DNA from: Parabacteroides faecis
GTDB taxonomy: Bacteria; Bacteroidota; Bacteroidia; Bacteroidales; Tannerellaceae
Reading direction: 5' to 3'
Assembly (NCBI RefSeq): GCF_014647375.1
Contig: NZ_BMPB01000002.1
Coordinates: forward strand, 372,001 to 436,000
Length of the DNA: 64,000 nucleotides
Shown here: positions 51,249-60,583 of the stretch, in pieces
How positions within the stretch are numbered: position 1 is the stretch's first letter
Layout: the number at the start of each line of letters is the position of its first letter
Position numbers and translations under genes: made by a program
Notes under the pieces: generated by a model
The model's input: only the letters and a program-made list of their open reading frames with translations
The model's database searches: none
What the model was told of the DNA's origin: nothing

Positions 51249-51470
51249 ATGGCACGAAAAGTAAATTATTCAAAAAGGATCGGGAAAATTAAAGCTCAAC
51301 TAGACGAGCTGGTTAATGACATTGAAAATGGTTCTAAAAAAGAAACAGAAGAAGTTGTAGAACAGAAAGTGAAAATTTCTGATATTGATTTCGAAAATGA
51401 AGATGTTGCTACGTTAATGAAAATTCAGACGCGTTTAGTTCGTGCAATTAATCAAAAAATGAAGAATTAA
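51249..51470 (+). CDS. Small charged protein, unknown
   Basis: A 73-residue basic/acidic protein with MARKVNYSKRIGKIKAQLDE at the N-terminus and an acidic stretch (DIENGSKKETEEVVEQKV) in the middle. The C-terminal LMKIQTRLVRAINQKMKN looks helical. No known family, signal or metal motif. It is the first gene of the leftward boundary of the phospho-signalling locus and has a strong terminator. Coding is supported by the clean start and by the terminator, not by homology. Confidence 0.55.
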   Translation: MARKVNYSKRIGKIKAQLDELVNDIENGSKKETEEVVEQKVKISDIDFENEDVATLMKIQTRLVRAINQKMKN

Positions 51471-51532: not shown

Positions 51533-51796
51533 ATATTAAACAGGTCATGTCTGGTGTCCGGTTGATGCCAAATATTCAATGAGAAGTTTCCAGCTTAGGC
51601 CAGGTATGGGGTGAGCTATTGAAATTTAATAGATAACTTATTTTTATCGAACTTCTTAATATTCAAGAATAAAAGAGGAATTTTATCAGCACGGCTTTCC
51701 CTTTACATTTATATTTCTTTGTAAAATATAGCCGGAATAAAGATAAAATACCGTATATTTGTTACTCGATGAAAATTAAAAAAACAATATCAACGT

Positions 51797-52195
51797 ATGG
51801 AGCGGTATTTAATAATTAAGACGAGGGATGAGTTGTTACGAATAAAGATAGGGCAGATACTCTATTTTGAAGCTGATAGAAATTACACTAAATTACTATT
51901 ATCCAATGGAATCCAGTTTACGTTTGCAATTAATATCGGTAAAATAGAAGAGATATTAGAAAAGCAGGTGGCAGGATGCAACAAGATATTAATGAGAGTT
52001 GGAAAAAGTCATATCATCAATAAAAATCATATTCTGCAGATCAATTTACCTAAGCAAAAACTATTATTGTTGACGGAAGAGGGCAAACCCAGAGAGCTTA
52101 TAATATCTAAAGATCCTTTGAAAGTGCTAAAAGAATCGCTGGAAAAGGAGATGGGCAAACCGGAAGAACCAAAGGAATTAAAAGATGAAAATTAA
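51797..52195 (+). CDS. Stand-alone LytTR DNA-binding protein
   Basis: A 132-residue protein that is a LytTR domain for about 1-105 (ERYLIIKTRDELLRIKIGQI, YFEADRNYTKLLL, MRVGKSHIINKNHILQI) with a charged Glu/Lys/Pro tail. LytTR domains bind pairs of direct repeats spaced about two DNA turns apart. There is no receiver, so activity is not controlled by a partner kinase in the usual way; Ser/Thr phosphorylation by the adjacent system is an attractive but unproven option. The stop overlaps the FHA gene by 11 bases. Confidence 0.9.
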   Translation: MERYLIIKTRDELLRIKIGQILYFEADRNYTKLLLSNGIQFTFAINIGKIEEILEKQVAGCNKILMRVGKSHIINKNHILQINLPKQKLLLLTEEGKPRELIISKDPLKVLKESLEKEMGKPEEPKELKDEN

Positions 52196-52838
52196 AATCG
52201 GTAAAGCTGAAGATAATGATTTTATAGTGAATGATCCTCATGTTAGCAGACACCATGCTTGTCTGATGCGTGAGGATCATGGCTGTTGGTTGTTAGAAGA
52301 TCTCGGCTCTACCAACGGAACTTTTGTTAATGGTTCACAGATCGTCAAAAAACGTGTTACACCGACAGATAAGATCATTTTGGGAACAGGCTATGTCCTG
52401 AATTTGTCTGAAGCGCTGAAGTATAATAATGACTATAGCGAAGAATTTGCCGCTTTAAAGAAAGTGTATGATGATTATGTTCAAGCAAAAGTGAAGATAC
52501 AGTCGGCTAATCAGTTTAAAACCAGATTATTTCAATCCCTTCCTTTTGCTTTACCCGGTATAATAGGTGTTGTGATCGGTTTTTTAGGTAAAGGGAGTCC
52601 TGAGTTTTTAGGGATAAGTCTTTTCATTACAATTTGTGCTCCTACCGTCGGTATTTATATGGGAGCCAAACAGGCATCCAAGACACCTCAACAGTTGCAA
52701 GACATTGCAAATCAATTTAAAATAGACTATGTATGTCCCAAATGCGGTACTTTTTTGGGAGAAATACCTTGGGAATCCCTGAGGAACAGAAAGCAATGCC
52801 CGGTTTCTTCCTGTAAAGCAAAGTGGGTCAGCGAATAA
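52185..52838 (+). CDS. Membrane FHA protein with C-terminal zinc ribbon
   Basis: A 217-residue protein. The FHA phospho-threonine-binding domain covers about 1-75 (GKAEDNDFIVNDPHVSRHHA, DLGSTNGTFVNG). A charged helical linker, two membrane helices (LPFALPGIIGVVIGFLG, SLFITICAPTVGIYMG) and a zinc ribbon (CPKC...CPVSSC) follow. FHA therefore faces the cytoplasm, as does the ribbon if the two helices hairpin. It starts inside the LytTR gene, so the two are coupled. Confidence 0.9.
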   Translation: MKIKIGKAEDNDFIVNDPHVSRHHACLMREDHGCWLLEDLGSTNGTFVNGSQIVKKRVTPTDKIILGTGYVLNLSEALKYNNDYSEEFAALKKVYDDYVQAKVKIQSANQFKTRLFQSLPFALPGIIGVVIGFLGKGSPEFLGISLFITICAPTVGIYMGAKQASKTPQQLQDIANQFKIDYVCPKCGTFLGEIPWESLRNRKQCPVSSCKAKWVSE

Positions 52839-52975
52839 GTTGTTTCGTATCTCAAAAGCGGACAGTTTGTACATAAAACCCAAACCTTTGATTATAAGAG
52901 GAAATTACATGTTAATTTAATCCGTTACTTTTTCTACTTTTGTTTCCAGAAAGAATAATTTTAATTCAAACCAGT

Positions 52976-53218
52976 ATGCAAGAGGAGGAATACACATTCG
53001 TTACACTAGACAGTGACGACTCCGTATTTAGTGATGCGGTAGTAGTAGATGTGGATGGGGAAAACGATTTATCTGGTATCGTTATGATTGATGATGATAA
53101 TATGGATGTTTCAGATTTTATTACATTATCTGATGACACTATAATATTGTCTGACACAGATGTACATGACGCTTTCTCTACTGATATTGACGGAGCTGAT
53201 ATATCGTTCATGTTATGA
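52976..53218 (+). CDS. Short acidic Asp/Ser/Thr-rich protein
   Basis: An 80-residue protein from ATG 52976 (MQEEEYTFVTLDSDDSVF) made of repeated short strands separated by acidic turns: FVTLDSDDS, VVVDVDGEND, IVMIDDDN, FITLSDDT, IILSDTDVHD. It is unusually rich in Asp with Thr/Ser beside acidic residues, the context favoured by FHA-binding phospho-sites and by acidophilic kinases. No signal peptide or known domain. The last 4 bases overlap the next FHA gene (ATGA), so it is firmly part of the operon. Could be an FHA ligand or scaffold (inference). Confidence 0.75.
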   Translation: MQEEEYTFVTLDSDDSVFSDAVVVDVDGENDLSGIVMIDDDNMDVSDFITLSDDTIILSDTDVHDAFSTDIDGADISFML

Positions 53219-53730
53219 TTTCAGTCAAGTGTCCACATTGTCACGTAGGATTAAAGGTAGACGAGGGGAAACTTCCCCTCGATCTCACTTCTTTTAAATG
53301 TCCGAAGTGTAAACAATCGATTCCTGTCTCTTTGCTTCAACTGGGAAAGCAAGGAGCAGATTGTGATCAGGATACAATCCTGGTCCATCCCGTTTCAAAC
53401 AGTACAGGTCAGCTTTTGGTTGTTGGCGATGCCGTTACCCCCGAACAATCTTTTCCCCTCTATGAAGGTATTGCAGTCATCGGTCGAAAATCCAATGCAT
53501 CGAATGCTACTATAGGGATTCTGACGGCCGATAAATCAATGAGCCGGGAACATATACGAATAGAAGTTAAAAAAGACCCAAAAGGAGGGTATAAACATTA
53601 TCTTTCTGACAATAATAGTAAAAACCATACGTTATATAATAGCAATTACCTTGAAAATGGAGAAGTAGTGGTGCTGAAGAATAATGACGAGATCGTTATC
53701 GGGCATACTGTTCTTCGCTTTAATGAATAA
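53215..53730 (+). CDS. FHA protein with N-terminal zinc ribbon
   Basis: A 171-residue soluble protein. An MJ0042-like zinc finger at 1-40 (CPHCHVGLKVDEG, FKCPKCKQSI) precedes an FHA domain at about 75-170 (IGRKSNASNATIGI, SMSREHIRIEV, DNNSKNHTLYN). Key FHA residues Arg, Ser and Asn are in place. It overlaps the acidic-protein gene and lies 14 bases before the phosphatase gene. Probable cytoplasmic reader of kinase-phosphorylated partners. Confidence 0.9.
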   Translation: MISVKCPHCHVGLKVDEGKLPLDLTSFKCPKCKQSIPVSLLQLGKQGADCDQDTILVHPVSNSTGQLLVVGDAVTPEQSFPLYEGIAVIGRKSNASNATIGILTADKSMSREHIRIEVKKDPKGGYKHYLSDNNSKNHTLYNSNYLENGEVVVLKNNDEIVIGHTVLRFNE

Positions 53731-53744
53731 AATCTGTTCGTGCT

Positions 53745-54548
53745 ATGAATATAACGATTGGCAAGCCTTGGGCCGTTTGTGAAAAAGGCGGTAGACAAAA
53801 CAACGAGGATTCAATCTATCCGTTACCGGAAATGGTTAATTCCAATCAGAAATTATTTCTGGTTTGCGATGGTGTCGGCGGATCAGAGAAAGGAGAGATT
53901 GCCAGTTCGCTGGCTTGTGAATCTTTCCAGACTTTCTTTTCTACATTCCTGGACGATGAACCATCAGAAGAATTTATAAATAAAGCTATCAGATATACAG
54001 AAGCTCGTTTCGACGATTACGTAAATACCCATCCGGAGGCCAAAGGTATGGCTACGACACTGACGATGGTTTCAGTTGGGACATCCGGTGTGACATTAGC
54101 GCATGTTGGGGACAGCCGGATTTATCAATTCCGCCAGGGAGAGATCCTTTATCAGACTGAAGACCACTCGTTAGTCAATTCACTTGTCAAATTGGGAAAG
54201 ATAACTAAGGAAGAAGCATCGACCCATCCGCAAAAAAATGTTATTGTTCGTGCCATACAAAGTACGGAACATCCGACGGAAGCAGATGTGATCCTGTTAA
54301 AAGATATACAGGCTGGCGATTATTTTTTCATGTGTACGGATGGTGTATTGGAACGGTTGAAAAATGAGGACCTTTCTTATATTTTCTCAACCCATAATAA
54401 CCCGGAAGATATAAAAGATGCCATTATGGCATCCTGTTGCGGGAAGACCAGGGATAACTTTTCTTTTTATATTTTACCGGTTCAAAACGTTGGTGAATCT
54501 ATCGGAATAAAACAAAATATTCTCTCTTTCCTTTATTCTTTTATATAA
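53745..54548 (+). CDS. PP2C-type Ser/Thr phosphatase
   Basis: A 267-residue PPM-family phosphatase. GGRQNNEDSI and CDGVGGSEKG carry the metal-binding Asp (Asp42), AHVGDSRIYQF, TDGVLERL and GKTRDNFSFYIL the remaining metal sites. It should reverse phosphorylation by the kinase encoded 43 bases downstream. No regulatory domain; the terminal 20 residues are extra and hydrophobic. Confidence 0.93.
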   Translation: MNITIGKPWAVCEKGGRQNNEDSIYPLPEMVNSNQKLFLVCDGVGGSEKGEIASSLACESFQTFFSTFLDDEPSEEFINKAIRYTEARFDDYVNTHPEAKGMATTLTMVSVGTSGVTLAHVGDSRIYQFRQGEILYQTEDHSLVNSLVKLGKITKEEASTHPQKNVIVRAIQSTEHPTEADVILLKDIQAGDYFFMCTDGVLERLKNEDLSYIFSTHNNPEDIKDAIMASCCGKTRDNFSFYILPVQNVGESIGIKQNILSFLYSFI

Positions 54549-54591
54549 ATAACGTAATTTTGGCAGATTAAAAAGAGATACGCAATAAGTT

Positions 54592-56493
54592 ATGAATTTG
54601 CCAAACGGACATCTTCTTCAAAATAGAAAATATCGGCTTACTCATGTAGTTGGTCAGGGCGGCTTTGGTATAACTTACAAAGGCGTCTGGTTTACTGAGG
54701 TTAAAGGACCATTGGGAACGATCAAAACAGAAGTTCCTATATGTGTAAAAGAATATTTTTTTAAAGATTACTGTTATAGAGATCCTGATTCTTTTGAAGT
54801 TAAAGTTCATTCAGAAACAGGAAGGGCGCTTTTTGAGAAGTTTAAAGAGAAACTGATTAAAGAGGCTAAGATATTATCGGATGTTCATCACCCTCATATT
54901 GTCAATGTATTGGAAGTGTTTGAAGAAAATAACACGGCCTATATTGCTATGGAGTATATTTCCGGTAATAGTTTGAAATATATGATGGACAAGGAAGGCG
55001 TCTTGCCGGAAGCGAGGGTGCTCAGATATGTGCATCAGATAGGAGAGGCTCTTCAGTTCGTTCACGAGAAAAATGTTCTCCATCTGGATATAAAACCGAG
55101 TAATATACTGATCGACCAAAGTGGGAAAGCACGCCTGATCGATTTTGGTGTGAGTAAACGATATGATATTGAACAGCAGGAGACAAGTACGACCATGCTG
55201 ACTTTATCGAAAGGTTTTGCCTCTATAGAGCAGTATGATAATGAGGGTACACAAAATTTTTCGCCATGCCCGGATATTTATTCCCTGGGCGCAACTATGT
55301 ATAACCTGTTGACCGGCAAGATACCGACAGAATCTATTCTCCGTGCAACCCGTCCGTTGCCAGTTCCTAGAGAATTAAATCCGGCTATTTCTTCCAAGAC
55401 AGAAGCTGCAATAATCAAGGCAATGGAAATTGTTCCTGCTGACCGTTTTCAATCGGTGTCGGAGATGTTGGTAGCTTTGGACTTCCCAGAAGCGGAGGAA
55501 GAGGAAATAAAAAAAGATATATCTTCTCCGGAATATTTTGAGGAAGATGAAACGACGATTTTATTTACAACACGTTTACCCCAATCCAAGACGGATGAAG
55601 GAGATGAAACGGTATTGAATAATGTCGATCAGCCTTCAATACCTAAAAAGAAAAAAAGAAAAGTAACGTTAATATCTTTACTTATTATTATATTTGCAAG
55701 TATAGCTTCTGCATGGGTGCTGTTGGTACAACGAAATAAACCTGTACCTCCTGTTGTTGAAGTTCTGAATGCTGCTCCGAAAGGAAATAGCGATCCGGTC
55801 TCTGAAACGGTAGCTACTGATATTATTGAAAAGAACAATACGTCGGCAGTTGCTGAAGAAGAACCCAGAAATGGTTCTGATGAGAAAAATGTCGATAACC
55901 GGCAGACTTCGCAAGAGAAACCCGCTGTTAAGTCTGAAGTTACGACTTCACGAACAGATACGGCGAAACCTCCAAAGGAGCCAACGGTAAAAGATATTGA
56001 GAAAACAGTTGTTACACCATCAGTTCCTTCGGAAGAAGAGATCAATGCGGAGTTTGAAACATTGATTACTTCCGGTAAAAGTAAAATGGCGGACGCACAG
56101 GTTTCCAATGGTGCAGCCGATTTTGCAAAAGCTACGGAAGAAATTTCGGAAGCAGGTCTTGCTTTCAGTAAGGCTGCAAAGCTCAAAACGACGGATGAAC
56201 TTATTGACCTTATAGGAAAATGTAAAGTCAAAGAGGAGGAAATACTCCTTGCCGGTAGAAAAGCACAATATGAAGAAATAAAACCATTTGGTGATCTTAT
56301 GATCGTTCAGAAAAAGGATACGAAGAAGTACGGAGCCATTGATGCCAATGCAAGAGAACGGGTCAAATGCAAATATTTGGCGGCATACCGGACACAGCAA
56401 GGATATGGAGCGTTTGTCAGGGAAGATGAATTGTTCGATATTTATAATACCGAAGGTGTAATGATCAGTGAACGTTTACCAGATTATTATTAA
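54592..56493 (+). CDS. Membrane Ser/Thr kinase with HLD catalytic loop
   Basis: A 633-residue eukaryotic-like kinase. Gly loop GQGGFGITYKG, ATP-contact Lys53 in CVKEYF, catalytic loop HLDIKPSNIL with Asp166, and DFG at 184-186; KGFASIEQYDN replaces the APE region. The usual Arg of HRD is Leu, so it is a non-RD kinase and may not need activation-loop phosphorylation. A charged linker with DETVLNN and TTILFT, one helix near 358-380 and a Ser/Thr/Lys/Glu-rich extracytoplasmic segment lead to a C-terminal beta domain (YGAIDANARERVKC) resembling a WG-type repeat. Last 26 bases overlap the next reading frame. Confidence 0.93.
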   Translation: MNLPNGHLLQNRKYRLTHVVGQGGFGITYKGVWFTEVKGPLGTIKTEVPICVKEYFFKDYCYRDPDSFEVKVHSETGRALFEKFKEKLIKEAKILSDVHHPHIVNVLEVFEENNTAYIAMEYISGNSLKYMMDKEGVLPEARVLRYVHQIGEALQFVHEKNVLHLDIKPSNILIDQSGKARLIDFGVSKRYDIEQQETSTTMLTLSKGFASIEQYDNEGTQNFSPCPDIYSLGATMYNLLTGKIPTESILRATRPLPVPRELNPAISSKTEAAIIKAMEIVPADRFQSVSEMLVALDFPEAEEEEIKKDISSPEYFEEDETTILFTTRLPQSKTDEGDETVLNNVDQPSIPKKKKRKVTLISLLIIIFASIASAWVLLVQRNKPVPPVVEVLNAAPKGNSDPVSETVATDIIEKNNTSAVAEEEPRNGSDEKNVDNRQTSQEKPAVKSEVTTSRTDTAKPPKEPTVKDIEKTVVTPSVPSEEEINAEFETLITSGKSKMADAQVSNGAADFAKATEEISEAGLAFSKAAKLKTTDELIDLIGKCKVKEEEILLAGRKAQYEEIKPFGDLMIVQKKDTKKYGAIDANARERVKCKYLAAYRTQQGYGAFVREDELFDIYNTEGVMISERLPDYY

Positions 56494-56500
56494 TGTTTTT

Positions 56501-57442
56501 ATGAAGAGACTTTGGATACTTATCTTATTTGTTGTATTGCCGGGTTATATAATGGCACAACAATATACAGAATATAACAAGAAAGGCGATGAAGCAATGA
56601 AGCGCCAGGATTACAGGAATGCGACAATGTGGTATGAAGAAGGCGTTATGCAGTGTGATTCATACAGCATAGAGCAATTGACTACTATCTGGAAGCTCAA
56701 TAAAAAGATGCGTCCGTCTATGCGTAGCCTGATGAGTAAGTGTTTCGACTGTCTGAGAGATAAAGCTACAATAGATAGCGATTCGACTGCCATATCGCAA
56801 CTGATCCTTTATTATAAAGAAGGAATAGGTACTTTGGCAAATGAAGAACGTGCCAGAAGTTGGAGTAATCGCTTGGAAGAACTTCGCAGACCGGTGGAAT
56901 CGATAACTTATATCCCCCACCAGGAGAAAAAGCCCAGAGAACCCATGAAATTTTTTGTTGGTTATGCATTCTCTATCGAGGCTCCTTACGGCTTAACTGT
57001 AGGTGGCGTAGGAGAAAGGTTCGGTTGGTATGCACGGTTCAGGACGAATATGTCATTTGATAATTATACGGATAAATGTAAAGGAACAGATGAGTTTATC
57101 AGTTATCCGGAAAATACAGCTTTAAAGTTTACCAATAAGAAAAAAGTAAACTGCTTAACAGCTTCTGCCGGTCTTGTTGTTAAATGTACGCCGTGGTTGT
57201 ATACTTCTGTCGGTTTAGGATATGGGAAGCGGGAGTTGTTGTGTGAATATAATGCTACCAGTTGGGATGATATCAATATAAAAAATACGTATTGGGCAAA
57301 GAATATTGATCATTCGTATGAAGGTGTGATCGCTGATTTAGACTTTATGGTAAAGTTCGGTTCAATATTTGTTAGTGCCGGATGTAATACCTTGAATTTT
57401 AAATATGTGGATCTGAATGCAGGTTTAGGTTTATTCTTTTAA
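56501..57442 (+). CDS. Exported TPR-like plus beta-rich protein
   Basis: A 313-residue protein from ATG 56501 (MKRLWILILFVVLPGYIMAQ, signal peptide cleaved near Ala19-Gln20). Residues 22-130 form TPR-like helices (EYNKKGDEAMKRQDYRNATMWYEEGV), which are Bacteroidota-typical, followed by a beta-rich region with alternating aromatics (FFVGYAFSIEAPYGLTVGG, LYTSVGLGYGKRELL) ending in Phe-Phe, consistent with an outer-membrane barrel. No named family. It starts 8 bases after the kinase stop, so it may be the envelope target or the periplasmic partner of the kinase. Confidence 0.75.
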   Translation: MKRLWILILFVVLPGYIMAQQYTEYNKKGDEAMKRQDYRNATMWYEEGVMQCDSYSIEQLTTIWKLNKKMRPSMRSLMSKCFDCLRDKATIDSDSTAISQLILYYKEGIGTLANEERARSWSNRLEELRRPVESITYIPHQEKKPREPMKFFVGYAFSIEAPYGLTVGGVGERFGWYARFRTNMSFDNYTDKCKGTDEFISYPENTALKFTNKKKVNCLTASAGLVVKCTPWLYTSVGLGYGKRELLCEYNATSWDDINIKNTYWAKNIDHSYEGVIADLDFMVKFGSIFVSAGCNTLNFKYVDLNAGLGLFF

Positions 57443-57453
57443 CTGATAAGATT

Positions 57454-59694
57454 ATGAAACAATTATACTTCTTATTAACTATATTTTCTTTACTATTATC
57501 AGGTTGTTTGGAAGATCCGGATATGAATACCGGATTACAGAATGCATTGAAACCGGAGTTTGAAAAATTTAGTGGAGATGATATTACAAAGACGGCAACA
57601 ACGATTGTTGCTAAAGCTACTATAAAGAAAGAAAATGGGTCTCCGGTTACTGAACGTGGATTCCAATATTGGGAGGAGAACAGTACTAATATTCAAAAAG
57701 AAACTGATAAGGAAAAAGAAGGCAAAGGAACATATAGTTTAACTATGGACCAACTGATAGATGGTGCAACTTACATGATATGTCCTTATGCAATTAATGG
57801 TGTTGGTACCAGTTATGGAGATACAATTAAGGTTAATACAAATCGTGGAACTGGTCGAGTAAAGACAACGACAATAGAGGATGAAGCTATTAATGCCACT
57901 TCTGTGAATGTAAAAGGCATCATTGCTGAAAAAGGAGAGGGAGAATATGAAGATTATGGTTTCCGTTTATTTAATGCTGAAAAAGATACAACATTTAATA
58001 AGGAAAAGGGTGTAGAACTTCGGGATGATAGTGTTTTAGTATATACAATTGAAGGATTGGAGCCTAATACTGAATATTTCGTGGAAGCCTATGCAAAGAA
58101 TAAATTCGGAACATTTAGTTCTGATGGCAAAGTGAAATTCACAACAAAAGATGGTCTTCCTCAATTAGGAAGTATCAGTCTTAAGGAAGATGCAGGATAT
58201 GATTATGCAATTTTAAGAGCGGAACTGGTTTGTGAAGGAGATTCTGCAGTGAAAGAGTTCGGCTTTTGTTGGGGGACAGATAATAGAACTCCAGGAAGGC
58301 CCAATATTGAACAAGACGATACGGTCAGGGCCCTCTCATTGGATGCTGATAATTTCTTCGAAGCTACGATCAAAAATCTGAGTGCTGCAACAAACTACTA
58401 TGTGATTGCTTATGCAACCAACGCTTTCGGAACACGGTATAGTAATGATACGATCAGAGTGGTGACAAAGAGAGACCTTCCGACCATATTTCTCAATGAA
58501 TCTTCCACTTATGTCATAAGTGCCGGAGTTGTTACGATTGGTGGGGAACTGCAAAGTGAAGGAAAAACGCCTGTGAGTGAATTAGCTGTTTATTATTCTT
58601 CATCTACCAAAACTCCTGGTCCGGAAAACTATGAAGGGAAAAAGGAGTTTAAGACTACTGATCTGGATGAAAATAATAAGTTTACCGTTACTCTTGAGAA
58701 TATAAAAGGAGGAAAGGAATATTATGTCAGAGCTTATGCGACCAATGAATCCGGTTCGGCTCCAAGTAATGAGATTCAAAAATTTACTACCCCTTCCATC
58801 TTTGGAGAAGATTTGGCTACTTTCCCCGGGTCAGGGCGTGTTGAATTTTCTACCTTCTGTGTAAACAGTCAGATATATATTCTGGGAGGATATTCTGGTA
58901 CCGGATATATTAAAGAACTATACGGTTATAGTCCGAGTGTGAACAAATGGGCAGCATTGTCTTCTTACAATGAAAATGTGTATGGAGCTTCTGTCTGTAC
59001 CCAGGATGATCATGTTTATTCTGTCGGGGGAAGGACAAATTCAAAATGGTTTACAGAATTATATACTTACGAGAATAATTCTTGGTCTTCATTTGCTTCA
59101 ATGGATAGCAAAATGGAATGTATTTTCCCTACTAGCTTTGTTTATAAAGATTCAATCATTTTGATTGGAGGTGAAAGAGCTGTAACGGTTCCTGAAAGTA
59201 AAAGCAGTATGGAAGTGCAGGACACTATATATCGTTATGATATGGTCAATAAAGAATGGATTGGATGCGGTAATTTTCCAGTCCCTATAAAGTCTGGAGT
59301 TTCTATCACTTCCGGAGATAGTGTATTTGTTGGTTTGGGAAGTATCTCTAAAGATAATTCATATGAACGGGGATTGTGGCTTAATACCTCTGGTAACTGG
59401 GAGGATTGGGCTGAGCTGGCTGATGCACCGACCGGTATGGGAAATGTTAGTTCTGGTATTTTGTTCAAGGATTGTTTATACTATATAGATAATGCTGGCA
59501 TTATCTGGCGTTTTAGTTTAGCAACGAAAGAGTGGTCAAAAATGTCCAGCTTCCCTAGAAAACTGGATAACCCACCTGTCGATTATAGGATATTCCTGTT
59601 GGATGATACTATATACATTTTCCTGATCAATTATTACTATTCTTATTTGAAGATTTATGATCCTTTGTGGGATGTACCACAAGAACAGAAATAA
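57454..59694 (+). CDS. Surface lipoprotein with FN3-like and Kelch repeats
   Basis: A 746-residue lipoprotein (LLLSGC, Cys18). Four to five fibronectin-type or Ig-like modules with the recurring LEPNTEYFVEAYAKN / LSAATNYYVIAYATN / GGKEYYVRAYATNE motif cover about 35-440, then a Kelch-like propeller (FCVNSQIYILGGYSG, SVGGRTNSKW, ILIGGERA) to the C-terminus. Likely exposed on the surface and involved in binding. It follows the TPR/barrel gene by 11 bases and is last in the run. The next gene, cysE, begins 1 base after its stop. Confidence 0.85.
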   Translation: MKQLYFLLTIFSLLLSGCLEDPDMNTGLQNALKPEFEKFSGDDITKTATTIVAKATIKKENGSPVTERGFQYWEENSTNIQKETDKEKEGKGTYSLTMDQLIDGATYMICPYAINGVGTSYGDTIKVNTNRGTGRVKTTTIEDEAINATSVNVKGIIAEKGEGEYEDYGFRLFNAEKDTTFNKEKGVELRDDSVLVYTIEGLEPNTEYFVEAYAKNKFGTFSSDGKVKFTTKDGLPQLGSISLKEDAGYDYAILRAELVCEGDSAVKEFGFCWGTDNRTPGRPNIEQDDTVRALSLDADNFFEATIKNLSAATNYYVIAYATNAFGTRYSNDTIRVVTKRDLPTIFLNESSTYVISAGVVTIGGELQSEGKTPVSELAVYYSSSTKTPGPENYEGKKEFKTTDLDENNKFTVTLENIKGGKEYYVRAYATNESGSAPSNEIQKFTTPSIFGEDLATFPGSGRVEFSTFCVNSQIYILGGYSGTGYIKELYGYSPSVNKWAALSSYNENVYGASVCTQDDHVYSVGGRTNSKWFTELYTYENNSWSSFASMDSKMECIFPTSFVYKDSIILIGGERAVTVPESKSSMEVQDTIYRYDMVNKEWIGCGNFPVPIKSGVSITSGDSVFVGLGSISKDNSYERGLWLNTSGNWEDWAELADAPTGMGNVSSGILFKDCLYYIDNAGIIWRFSLATKEWSKMSSFPRKLDNPPVDYRIFLLDDTIYIFLINYYYSYLKIYDPLWDVPQEQK

Positions 59695-59695
59695 G

Positions 59696-60583
59696 ATGAA
59701 CAGAACTGATATTTTAAACCAGATACAAAAAAACGTTGAACGTTTATCGGCTTCCGATCTGCCGGAGTATAAATATATTCCGCTGCATCAGAAGCCATCA
59801 CCTTCCGTGCATTCTCTTCGGGAGGTGATGTTATTGCTACGGAAAGTGATCTTTCCGGGATTCTTTGGATCGGAGCAAGAGGCACAGGTAGATTCAATCC
59901 AATATTATACAGGTGTATATCTGGAGAAAATATACGATCTGTTACAGGAACAGATATACAATGGACTGTGTTTTGAAGTGGATCGTTGTTGCGACTCGAA
60001 AGATCGCGCTTCCCGGATAGCGATTGATTTTATAAATAAAATTCCTCATATAAAGTATTTGCTTTCTACAGATGTAAAGGCTATACTGGATGGAGATCCG
60101 GCGGCGAAGAGCCTTAGTGAAATAATTTTCTGTTATCCCGCCGTACATGCAATCCTTCATCAACGGGTAGCTCATGAGTTATTAAAGCTGGGTGTACCTG
60201 TTCTGCCGCGTATTATAACTGAGATGGCCCATTCCGAGACTGGTATCGATATTCATCCGGGAGCACAGATAGGAGAATATTTCAGTATCGATCATGGTAC
60301 GGGTATTGTTGTGGGACAAACTGCTATTATCGGTAACCACGTCCGTCTATATCAGGGAGTCACTTTAGGAGCCAAAAACTTTACGTTGGATGAAGAAGGA
60401 CTACCTATCGATGTTCCCCGTCATCCGATCATTGAAGATTATGTTACTATCTACTCCAATGCATCTATTCTCGGTCGTATCACGATCGGAAAAGGTTCGG
60501 TGATAGGGGGTAATATTTGGTTAACTCATAGTGTCCCACCAAACTCCAAAGTTCTTCAAACGCGAGCTGTTGAAGACAAATAA
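59696..60583 (+). CDS. cysE: Serine O-acetyltransferase
   Basis: A 295-residue enzyme from ATG 59696 (MNRTDILNQIQKNVERLS) that makes O-acetylserine for cysteine synthesis. An N-terminal helical region (about 1-150) is followed by the left-handed beta-helix with hexapeptide repeats: GIDIHPGAQIGEYFSIDHG, GIVVGQTAIIGNHVRLYQGV and VTLGAKNF, ending in LQTRAVEDK (landmarks HPGAQIGEY and VVGQTAIIGN). It is the EpsC/CysE long form. It starts almost at the stop of the surface lipoprotein, so transcription may read through. Confidence 0.93.
   Translation: MNRTDILNQIQKNVERLSASDLPEYKYIPLHQKPSPSVHSLREVMLLLRKVIFPGFFGSEQEAQVDSIQYYTGVYLEKIYDLLQEQIYNGLCFEVDRCCDSKDRASRIAIDFINKIPHIKYLLSTDVKAILDGDPAAKSLSEIIFCYPAVHAILHQRVAHELLKLGVPVLPRIITEMAHSETGIDIHPGAQIGEYFSIDHGTGIVVGQTAIIGNHVRLYQGVTLGAKNFTLDEEGLPIDVPRHPIIEDYVTIYSNASILGRITIGKGSVIGGNIWLTHSVPPNSKVLQTRAVEDK

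Follow-up and report, generated by a model that had tools for sequence, protein, structure and literature searches.

The present analysis supports the view that eight adjacent genes of Parabacteroides faecis, encoding a LytTR protein, two FHA proteins (FHA1 and FHA2), an acidic peptide (ACID), a PP2C-type phosphatase (PP2C), a Ser/Thr kinase (STK), an exported barrel-like protein (BARR) and a Kelch lipoprotein (KELCH), constitute one conserved, co-inherited system, referred to here as the module. The genes lie in a stretch of 64,000 nucleotides, called the window in its full length (RefSeq assembly GCF_014647375.1, contig NZ_BMPB01000002.1, positions 372,001 to 436,000, forward strand), of a 6.66 Mb genome, and all eight are present on the + strand at positions 51797-59694 of the window (Table 1). 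We propose, with about equal confidence for and against, that they form a phosphothreonine relay across the envelope, which acts through LytTR and FHA1 on the relay's own promoter.

Conservation and co-inheritance within Tannerellaceae

Presence was counted in 66 Tannerellaceae genomes, each at least 90% complete. STK scored at least 605 bits in 61 of them (those of G048 and G052 in pieces), FHA1 was found at E <=1e-20 in 63 and at no less than 200 bits in 62, and both proteins were present in 59. Across these genomes, STK gave no match in G029, G063 and G076 and weak matches only in G065, while the STK and FHA1 relatives of G054 were of a second type only, described below. FHA1 was not found in G029, G076 and G022, and the module contig of G022 terminates in ACID; G045, whose module contig begins at ACID, gave a partial FHA1 match only. 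The genomes with STK only are thus G022 and G045, and those with neither protein are the near-complete G029 and G076. Within the genus, STK matches were obtained in 36 of the 39 Parabacteroides genomes and in 26 of the 27 better ones. When G029 and G076, and likewise the less complete G020 and G035, were probed with LytTR, FHA1, ACID, FHA2, PP2C and BARR (KELCH not being in the probe), only a distant FHA2-like gene of 29-32% identity was found in these four genomes.

The full eight-gene order on one strand was observed in 49 of the 57 fetched family loci holding an STK ortholog, and the gene set is therefore not a chance assembly. The hidden Markov models used for this order test were built from the genus loci, where detection is by construction and order is not. 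Among the eight exceptions, five lie at contig ends and three are splits between PP2C and STK; the three split genomes (G061, G042 and G028) keep the other block elsewhere in the genome, with a shortened PP2C in G042. ACID was detected in 53 of the 57 loci. The Tannerellaceae set is mostly single-copy with its order kept, and PPDK or RlmD neighbours recur in many loci. The strongest evidence that the two blocks work together is that all parts were kept after separation and are jointly absent where the module is missing. The initial annotation of the window had asked for a check of co-occurrence across genomes and held that the system would fail if the genes co-occurred only in this strain or if LytTR and the kinase cluster were never adjacent elsewhere; since LytTR, FHA, PP2C, STK and Kelch lipoprotein genes are adjacent across the family, this refutation fails.

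A tandem second LytTR-FHA pair precedes the module in G050 (L085 2959-5753), and its extra FHA protein has 344 aa, an FHA domain and a low overall FHA1 score.

A likely operator between FHA1 and ACID

LytTR and FHA1 overlap by 11 bp and ACID and FHA2 by 4 bp, and the later intervals are short (FHA2-PP2C +14, PP2C-STK +43, STK-BARR +7 and BARR-KELCH +11 bp). The gap between FHA1 and ACID measures +137 bp and is likely to divide the set into two transcription units. The Bacteroidetes -7 box has the form TAnnTTTG. A conserved TATATTTG box (P1) occurs in the region before LytTR, where the alignment of 30 upstream regions showed no further clearly conserved element, and the FHA1-ACID gap, which is strongly conserved in the genus, carries a TACTTTTG box (P2). 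In the available text of PMC6193735, TATCTTTG is given as a promoter box for Bacteroides.

Within the gap, TTTnGTAnnnnAAA is repeated at a distance of about 21 bp (22 bp in the window) and is followed by TTTGATTATAAG. In an anchored self-match, offsets from 12 to 33 were compared and 21 scored highest (0.54, p 5e-4 by column permutation); this test used 23 elements (19 non-redundant) with the first repeat in the anchored stretch, the other gaps being dropped and L047 being misregistered. The version relied on was the unanchored self-match, in which 41 non-redundant gaps gave z 10.2 at 21 bp, z 4.4 at 22 bp and at most 2.3 at other offsets; these z-values treat related sequences as independent, and it is the contrast between offsets that counts. 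No clear 21-bp signal was obtained before LytTR in 24 Parabacteroides sequences (z 1.7; the largest value was 2.7, at 19 and 30 bp). The gaps of Tannerella and its near kin hold the plain repeats TTTTGTACAATAA and TTTTGTACGTTAT (13 non-redundant sequences of 16), and the identity in Tannerella gaps was 0.71 at 21 bp versus 0.19-0.32 at the remaining offsets, the anchor having been picked for the 21-bp match, a favourable bias. Behind FHA1 of the second type the best offset was again 21 bp (z 4.4, 20 sequences, in which the gap follows FHA1 as judged by eye), and before LytTR of the second type 21, 22 and 28 bp gave z 3.0-3.5. A DNA target of LytTR type is expected to show direct repeats with a spacing of about 21 bp close to a promoter, and the site predicted here has them.

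The R2-R3 pattern of this putative operator was searched in the 39 Parabacteroides genomes and gave 35 matches, compared with 10 for the reversed control. All 24 matches with at most two mismatches and 6 of the 11 with three lay at the FHA1-ACID gap; among these 30 on-site matches, those of G010 and G031 were placed by contig or sequence only. The pattern was derived from these gaps, so that on-site matches are expected, and the informative result is that no other close sites were found, degenerate ones being still possible. Because close matches occur almost only at its own gap, LytTR looks like a dedicated local regulator. A wider LytTR regulon was also sought with a loose tandem half-site, which gave 50 matches in the 39 genomes, four of them at the module, with 32 for the reversed control, and missed the site in the genome of the window; no regulon is therefore claimed.

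Separately, half-site pairs (TTCGTATTG-like, followed by TTTTCGTACT or TTTTTGTACT) were noticed outside the module in four related genomes (G001:C68:46481, G001:C93:119, G012:C1:3300897, G014:C3:821106 and G015:C1:2931811), and these may mark an additional target of this LytTR protein or of a different one.

Candidate phosphothreonines and the proteins that may read them

The STK query matches only itself in its own genome at E <=0.001. The residues K53, H164-L165-D166 and D184-F185-G186 do not vary among 21 aligned STKs, and we take the H-L-D catalytic motif to mark a non-RD kinase. The linker between kinase and membrane (296-355) is variable, with a mean top-residue frequency of 0.40 versus 0.87 in the kinase part. 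The linker positions at 0.75 or above are L296, D297, E320 (0.91), T321 and T322 (29/34 each), T340 (32/34) and K353, and once the kinase end and one Lys are set aside, E320, T321, T322 and T340 are the sole residues to reach 0.85. Among the genus sequences, T54 of FHA2 is kept in 32 of 33, and T7, T10 and T50 of ACID in all 33.

The motif [DE]T[IV][LM] occurs at 8.8 per 1000 aa in ACID, 4.6 in FHA2 and 0.40 in STK, compared with 0.19 in 43 other genes of the window. As the first STK site reads ETT, a looser form was used for the kinase, which gave 0.99 per 1000 aa and was found in 16 of 33 sequences. Going by this conservation, the acidic-motif threonines of the STK linker, FHA2 and ACID are candidate phosphosites and FHA ligands.

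FHA1 has hydrophobic segments at 115-137 and 141-161, and in its ribbon C184, C187 and C210 are invariant and C205 nearly so (alignment A1). Three FHA domains above the cut-off are encoded in the genome, two of them within the module. A third FHA protein with an MJ0042 ribbon (G000:C18:58509-58736, L234) is unlinked in this genome, its likeness being judged by eye; its like occur at L230 6353-6895 and L219 6794-7324, stand divergently beside LytTR in G028 and are kept in the module-less G029.

Envelope proteins and inside-out divergence

In the model of the periplasmic domain of STK (480-633; predicted local distance difference test score, pLDDT, 95), three helices accompany a sheet; the domain matches the WG repeat below threshold only, and a comparison with solved structures returned no match at E <=0.001. 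About 100 variable residues (0.28) lie between the membrane segment and this domain, a linker that would be long enough to reach far across the periplasm.

The initial annotation had called the next protein exported and TPR/barrel-like, and the predictions agree with both parts: the helices of BARR are Sel1 chains by profile, and its AlphaFold model (mean pLDDT 88, predicted template-modelling score 0.50) contains ten strand pieces. Foldseek matched the Ail, OmpX and OmpA barrels at E 8e-7 to 7e-6, with template-modelling scores of 0.36-0.57 by target and 0.22-0.30 by query. This likeness probably indicates fold class and not kinship, and the number of eight strands is read off these matches.

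Mean identity to the window within the genus decreases from LytTR (0.88) through FHA1 (0.77), FHA2 (0.72), PP2C (0.70), ACID (0.66), STK (0.60) and BARR (0.59) to KELCH (0.32). KELCH evolves fastest of the eight, its propeller part standing at 0.21-0.32. Such inside-out divergence fits a constant cytoplasmic core that would read a variable surface sensor.

Second-type clusters

In an order-wide draw of 295 genomes, kinase relatives at E <=1e-60 were found in 11, four of which are family members. The corresponding FHA1 search listed 22 of the 295 genomes, several of the weaker rows being FHA domains of other proteins, and at the cut-offs used LytTR adjoins FHA1 in all four drawn members of the family as well as in G314, G322, G236 and G200. 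G314, of another family, holds an ACID-like gene, FHA2, PP2C, STK, BARR, KELCH and the acetyltransferase-like gene together, with LytTR-FHA1 on another contig.

A scan of named genomes was evaluated for its best 80 matches, among which at least 61 loci lie beyond the orthologs and are titled Prevotellaceae, Muribaculaceae, Rikenellaceae, Bacteroidaceae and others. In these 61 loci among the best 80 matches, LytTR and FHA1 both occur in 18 (adjacent in 17), FHA1 alone in 3 and LytTR alone in 2. Four second-type clusters were read gene by gene: three of them (L065, L066 and L095) are additional clusters of Tannerellaceae genomes, and the fourth, L102, comes from another family. Second-type clusters typically comprise LytTR-FHA1, at least one STK, FHA2, PP2C and a scaffold-like protein (SCAF), which often starts with an acidic-Thr motif (EETxV-like). 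These clusters are distributed patchily.

We tentatively suggest a Bacteroidales circuit class in which a Ser/Thr kinase would reach transcription through a membrane-tethered FHA protein gating LytTR, with an operator between LytTR-FHA1 and ACID/scaffold-FHA2-PP2C; the Tannerellaceae route would run from a variable surface propeller to an outer-membrane barrel and a periplasm-spanning kinase, without a two-component or sigma/anti-sigma part.

The second-type clusters also bear on the idea of a kinase-based system for anti-phage defence or conflict, like the kinase-type systems in PADLOC. Some second-type clusters hold several kinases, with a caspase-like gene in L095, the KELCH propeller evolves fast, and STK matches the mad6 and PD-T4-6 models. 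These PADLOC matches, however, reflect the generic kinase domain and leave the other seven proteins unmatched, and the Tannerellaceae set is mostly single-copy with a kept order, often beside the same PPDK or RlmD neighbours, so we regard such a system as very improbable.

Several features of these clusters were noted in their own right. SCAF (L065 5336-6262 and relatives, alignment A8) has about 300 aa, a conserved EAFAxARAEVGPGGVFEWHG core and weak EF-hand matches, and no family scored above the cut-off in the two sequences searched. The notion that ACID is a shortened copy of SCAF was tried and is not claimed, the profile comparison having covered 24 columns only with a probability of 22%. 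The caspase-like protein of L095 (14241-14993; Peptidase_C14, 64 bits) stands directly behind FHA1 and has an export-signal-like start; judged by eye, a protein with such a start also follows FHA1 in L156, L166, L172, L188 and L200. A KELCH-like open reading frame (127 bits) lies at L223 10718-12799 (G099, another family) on the same strand, upstream of a second-type LytTR-FHA1 pair.

The proposed relay and the evidence against it

In the proposed relay, KELCH, probably at the surface, and BARR would form an outer sensor. The STK linker would span much of the periplasm, where the helical/WG-like domain of the kinase may meet BARR. In the cytoplasm, to judge from protein families and conservation, STK would phosphorylate its own T321/T322 and T340, T54 in the FHA2 linker and T10/T50 of ACID, and PP2C would take these phosphates off; FHA2 and, at the membrane, FHA1 would read the phosphosites through their FHA domains, and ACID may be a small phospho-switch or scaffold. 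FHA1 would hold or release LytTR at the membrane, as the gene pairing and known LytTR regulatory systems suggest. LytTR would act on the direct repeats 21-22 bp apart before P2, and the kinase state would thereby set the transcription of ACID-FHA2-PP2C and, where linked, of STK-BARR-KELCH.

The initial annotation had predicted a flow from the kinase to FHA readers and LytTR transcription with an envelope output. Its notion of one system is retained; the output is revised, since the DNA evidence places the candidate LytTR target inside the cluster, upstream of ACID, and transcription would then feed back on the relay and not on a separate envelope regulon. The anatomy of the envelope proteins suggests that they are input at least as much as output.

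A number of observations weigh against the relay. Gene order does not by itself give the direction of flow. Each of the three split STK-BARR-KELCH units carries a -7-like box of its own, and TTTnGTA was not found within 420 bp, so LytTR control of the kinase and envelope genes is not obligatory; the lack of a LytTR-type site in these units bears on the envelope-output claim as well. In G314 the repeats before ACID are not clear, with a half-site at most by eye. Only 8 of 33 STKs carry the strict acidic-Thr motif, which is also seen in 8 of 9 sequences of PPDK, a protein that does not belong to the module. The FHA domain of FHA1 begins with G-K and not with the usual G-R. The third FHA protein is encoded at another place in the genome, and relatives of it persist where the module was lost. 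STK matches in G055, G074 and G075 contain stops, and G063 and G065 keep FHA1 with no STK ortholog found, possibly through assembly gaps. Nine further order loci with FHA1-like genes were inspected: a LytTR match is present in L221 and L225 and a weak one (23 bits) in L223, and LytTR was not found in L222, L224 and L226-L229 (L227-L229 being on short contigs), though STK, PP2C, SCAF or FHA2 are near. Because LytTR was not found in six of the nine, FHA1-kinase clusters without LytTR seem to exist.

Part of this evidence would suit two systems side by side, in which an autonomous LytTR-FHA1 switch would only set the level of the downstream operon, and the kinase, phosphatase and FHA2 would have a post-translational envelope output (surface, cell wall or S-layer) with no phospho-signal to LytTR. 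Three split species hold LytTR-FHA1-ACID-FHA2-PP2C apart from an operator-less STK-BARR-KELCH, none of 30 FHA1 sequences has the acidic-Thr motif, and some FHA1-kinase clusters lack a detectable LytTR. FHA1 is nevertheless of a phosphothreonine-reader family and is encoded with LytTR, second-type clusters again combine this pair with STK, FHA2 and PP2C, and both blocks are jointly missing in G029 and G076; the arrangement as two systems is therefore judged rather unlikely.

Short tandem-repeat DNA was also seen upstream of the separated STK unit in L079 and in the earlier stretch of L091, two of the three splits; the period-21 tandem repeat of L079 holds no TTTnGTA.

Relation to known systems

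The module resembles the LytTR regulatory systems (LRS; HdrRM and BrsRM) as given in the available text of PMC6193735, with a receiver-less LytTR regulator beside a membrane protein and direct repeats of about 21 bp periodicity upstream of a promoter in the locus. The repeats in those examples measure 9 bp with mostly 12 bp between, that is, 21 bp, and the LRS-like operons of Bacteroides described there (NfeD/DUF2154 membrane protein, membrane LytTR) differ in make-up (PMC6193735, same text). A stand-alone LytTR encoded with a membrane protein is present here, the 132-aa protein overlapping the gene for FHA1 with its two hydrophobic segments. Inhibition of the regulator by the membrane protein is a further mark of the LRS. 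In contrast to the LRS, LytTR is paired with a membrane protein that carries an FHA domain and a zinc ribbon, and a kinase, a phosphatase and envelope proteins are added. The repeats, moreover, stand before the next transcription unit (z 10.2) and not at the LytTR operon's own promoter (z 1.7).

EmbR of mycobacteria itself carries an FHA domain. As in the system of EmbR and its kinases (PMC6213207, available text), Ser/Thr kinases would act on envelope-gene transcription through a regulator. Here, by contrast, the FHA and DNA-binding domains lie in separate proteins, the FHA partner is membrane-bound and the regulator is LytTR and not OmpR-like. In the FHA switches GarA and OdhI, a phosphothreonine N-terminal to the FHA domain is bound intramolecularly by that domain. 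FHA2 likewise has a conserved Thr N-terminal to its FHA domain, T54 in an acidic linker motif, the OdhI phosphosite being Thr14 according to the available text of PMC2784874. FHA2 differs in its zinc ribbon and in being encoded with ACID as a second phospho-candidate, and it scored 17.2 of 200 bits against the OdhI equivalog model.

The PASTA-type kinases Stk1/PknB with the phosphatases Stp1/PstP also combine a membrane kinase and a PP2C phosphatase in one operon. STK reached 178 bits against the Stk1 model, below its cut-off of 450; PASTA repeats were not found in it, and its periplasmic part is helical with a WG-like sheet. PP2C reached 187 bits against the Stp1 model, below the cut-off of 230, though PP2C families scored above the Pfam cut-offs. 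The module thus resembles the LRS and kinase-FHA-PP2C sets, but it lacks one defining LRS feature and stays below the curated PASTA/Stp1 cut-offs.

The trio of kinase, FHA protein and PP2C phosphatase named PpkA, Fha and PppA controls type VI secretion. The same sorts of partners occur in the module, and among solved structures the kinase profile is closest to PpkA (5hnv, E 2e-42), which could point to a threonine-phosphorylation pathway of this kind that switches a secretion or surface-assembly machine, LytTR being incidental. Here, however, a transcription regulator and a likely operator are built in and stay with the set across the family. The initial annotation had noted that type VI genes are absent, and in agreement no secretion genes are among the eight and the VipB sheath gene was not found in the genome with one Pfam model, which matched in 1 of 14 control genomes and which divergent Bacteroidales forms could escape. 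A pathway of the type VI kind is accordingly considered improbable.

The initial annotation had also called the system undescribed, and no report of it, nor any paper joining LytTR with "FHA domain", was found in the literature searched, outside which most subscription papers and all bioRxiv preprints lie. By word search, such a system does not appear in the available text of PMC7159879 or PMC6213207. Newly described here are the likely internal FHA1-ACID promoter with its repeats, the conserved acidic-motif threonines and the barrel model of BARR.

Coordinates and neighbouring genes

As the initial annotation had reported, a one-strand cluster of eight genes, some of them overlapping or nearly so, was seen, and the domains scored above the Pfam cut-offs except in ACID and BARR, for which the Pfam and curated family search returned no family above cut-off. 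The scores were 39.9 bits for LytTR (cut-off 22.6), 68.2 and 47.1 for the FHA domains of FHA1 and FHA2 (20.7), 27.2 for the MJ0042_CXXC ribbon of FHA2 (20.9), 59.7 for PP2C_2 (24), 138.6 for Pkinase (31.7), 43.7 for Kelch_1 (20.1) and 41.2 for fn3 (25). Two start codons are revised: ACID most likely starts at ATG 52976 and not at TTG 52940 of the listed open reading frame, and for BARR ATG 56501 is more likely than GTG 56468.

Table 1. Features of the module and its surroundings (positions in the window)
Feature	Position	Strand	Basis or remark
P1, -7-like box TATATTTG upstream of LytTR	51754..51761	+	kept in alignment of 30 upstream regions
LytTR, stand-alone predicted DNA-binding protein, 132 aa	51797..52195	+	Pfam LytTR; receiver domain not detected
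FHA1, FHA domain at the N-terminus, membrane hairpin of two helices, zinc ribbon at the C-terminus	52185..52838	+	Pfam FHA and hydrophobic segments
Candidate LytTR-type operator	52843..52898	+	R1 52843-52856, R2 52865-52877, third block 52887-52898
P2, -7-like box TACTTTTG, internal promoter upstream of ACID	52935..52942	+	kept in 31 aligned gaps
ACID, 80-aa acidic peptide, conserved FVTLD and DFITLSDDT motifs	52976..53218	+	family-wide detection; without Pfam family
FHA2, zinc ribbon (MJ0042), then a linker bearing the acidic-Thr motif (T54), then FHA	53215..53730	+	Pfam
PP2C-type protein phosphatase	53745..54548	+	PP2C_2
STK, Ser/Thr kinase, juxtamembrane Thr motifs (T321, T322, T340), single transmembrane segment 356-382	54592..56493	+	Pkinase, alignment
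STK, C-terminal to transmembrane segment: long variable linker, then periplasmic helical and WG-like domain	within 54592..56493	+	model
BARR, exported; Sel1/TPR-like helices and small OmpX/OmpA-sort outer-membrane barrel, probably 8 strands	56501..57442	+	model
KELCH, lipoprotein (LLLSGC), FN3-like part and Kelch propeller	57454..59694	+	Pfam
Neighbouring non-core gene, presumably serine acetyltransferase-like	59696..60583	+	1 bp behind KELCH

The presumed serine acetyltransferase-like gene directly follows KELCH in 41 of the 57 loci and was not found behind KELCH in several genera. A gene of 73 aa at 51249-51470 precedes LytTR; it occurs in only two of the fetched genus loci (L031 and L032) and therefore lies outside the module. 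No RNA families or tRNAs were detected within the window.

Significance

Knowledge of Ser/Thr-kinase signalling in Bacteroidales seems to be scant, and the available main text of a review of bacterial Hanks-type kinases contains no word beginning with Bacteroid (PMC6213207). With a module present in most of the Parabacteroides and Tannerella relatives searched, a likely operator, candidate phosphosites and a single such kinase in its own genome, kinase-to-transcription signalling becomes directly testable in a tractable gut commensal. If the proposed relay is true, it would add to response regulators and anti-sigma factors another means by which signals at the outer membrane reach a promoter.

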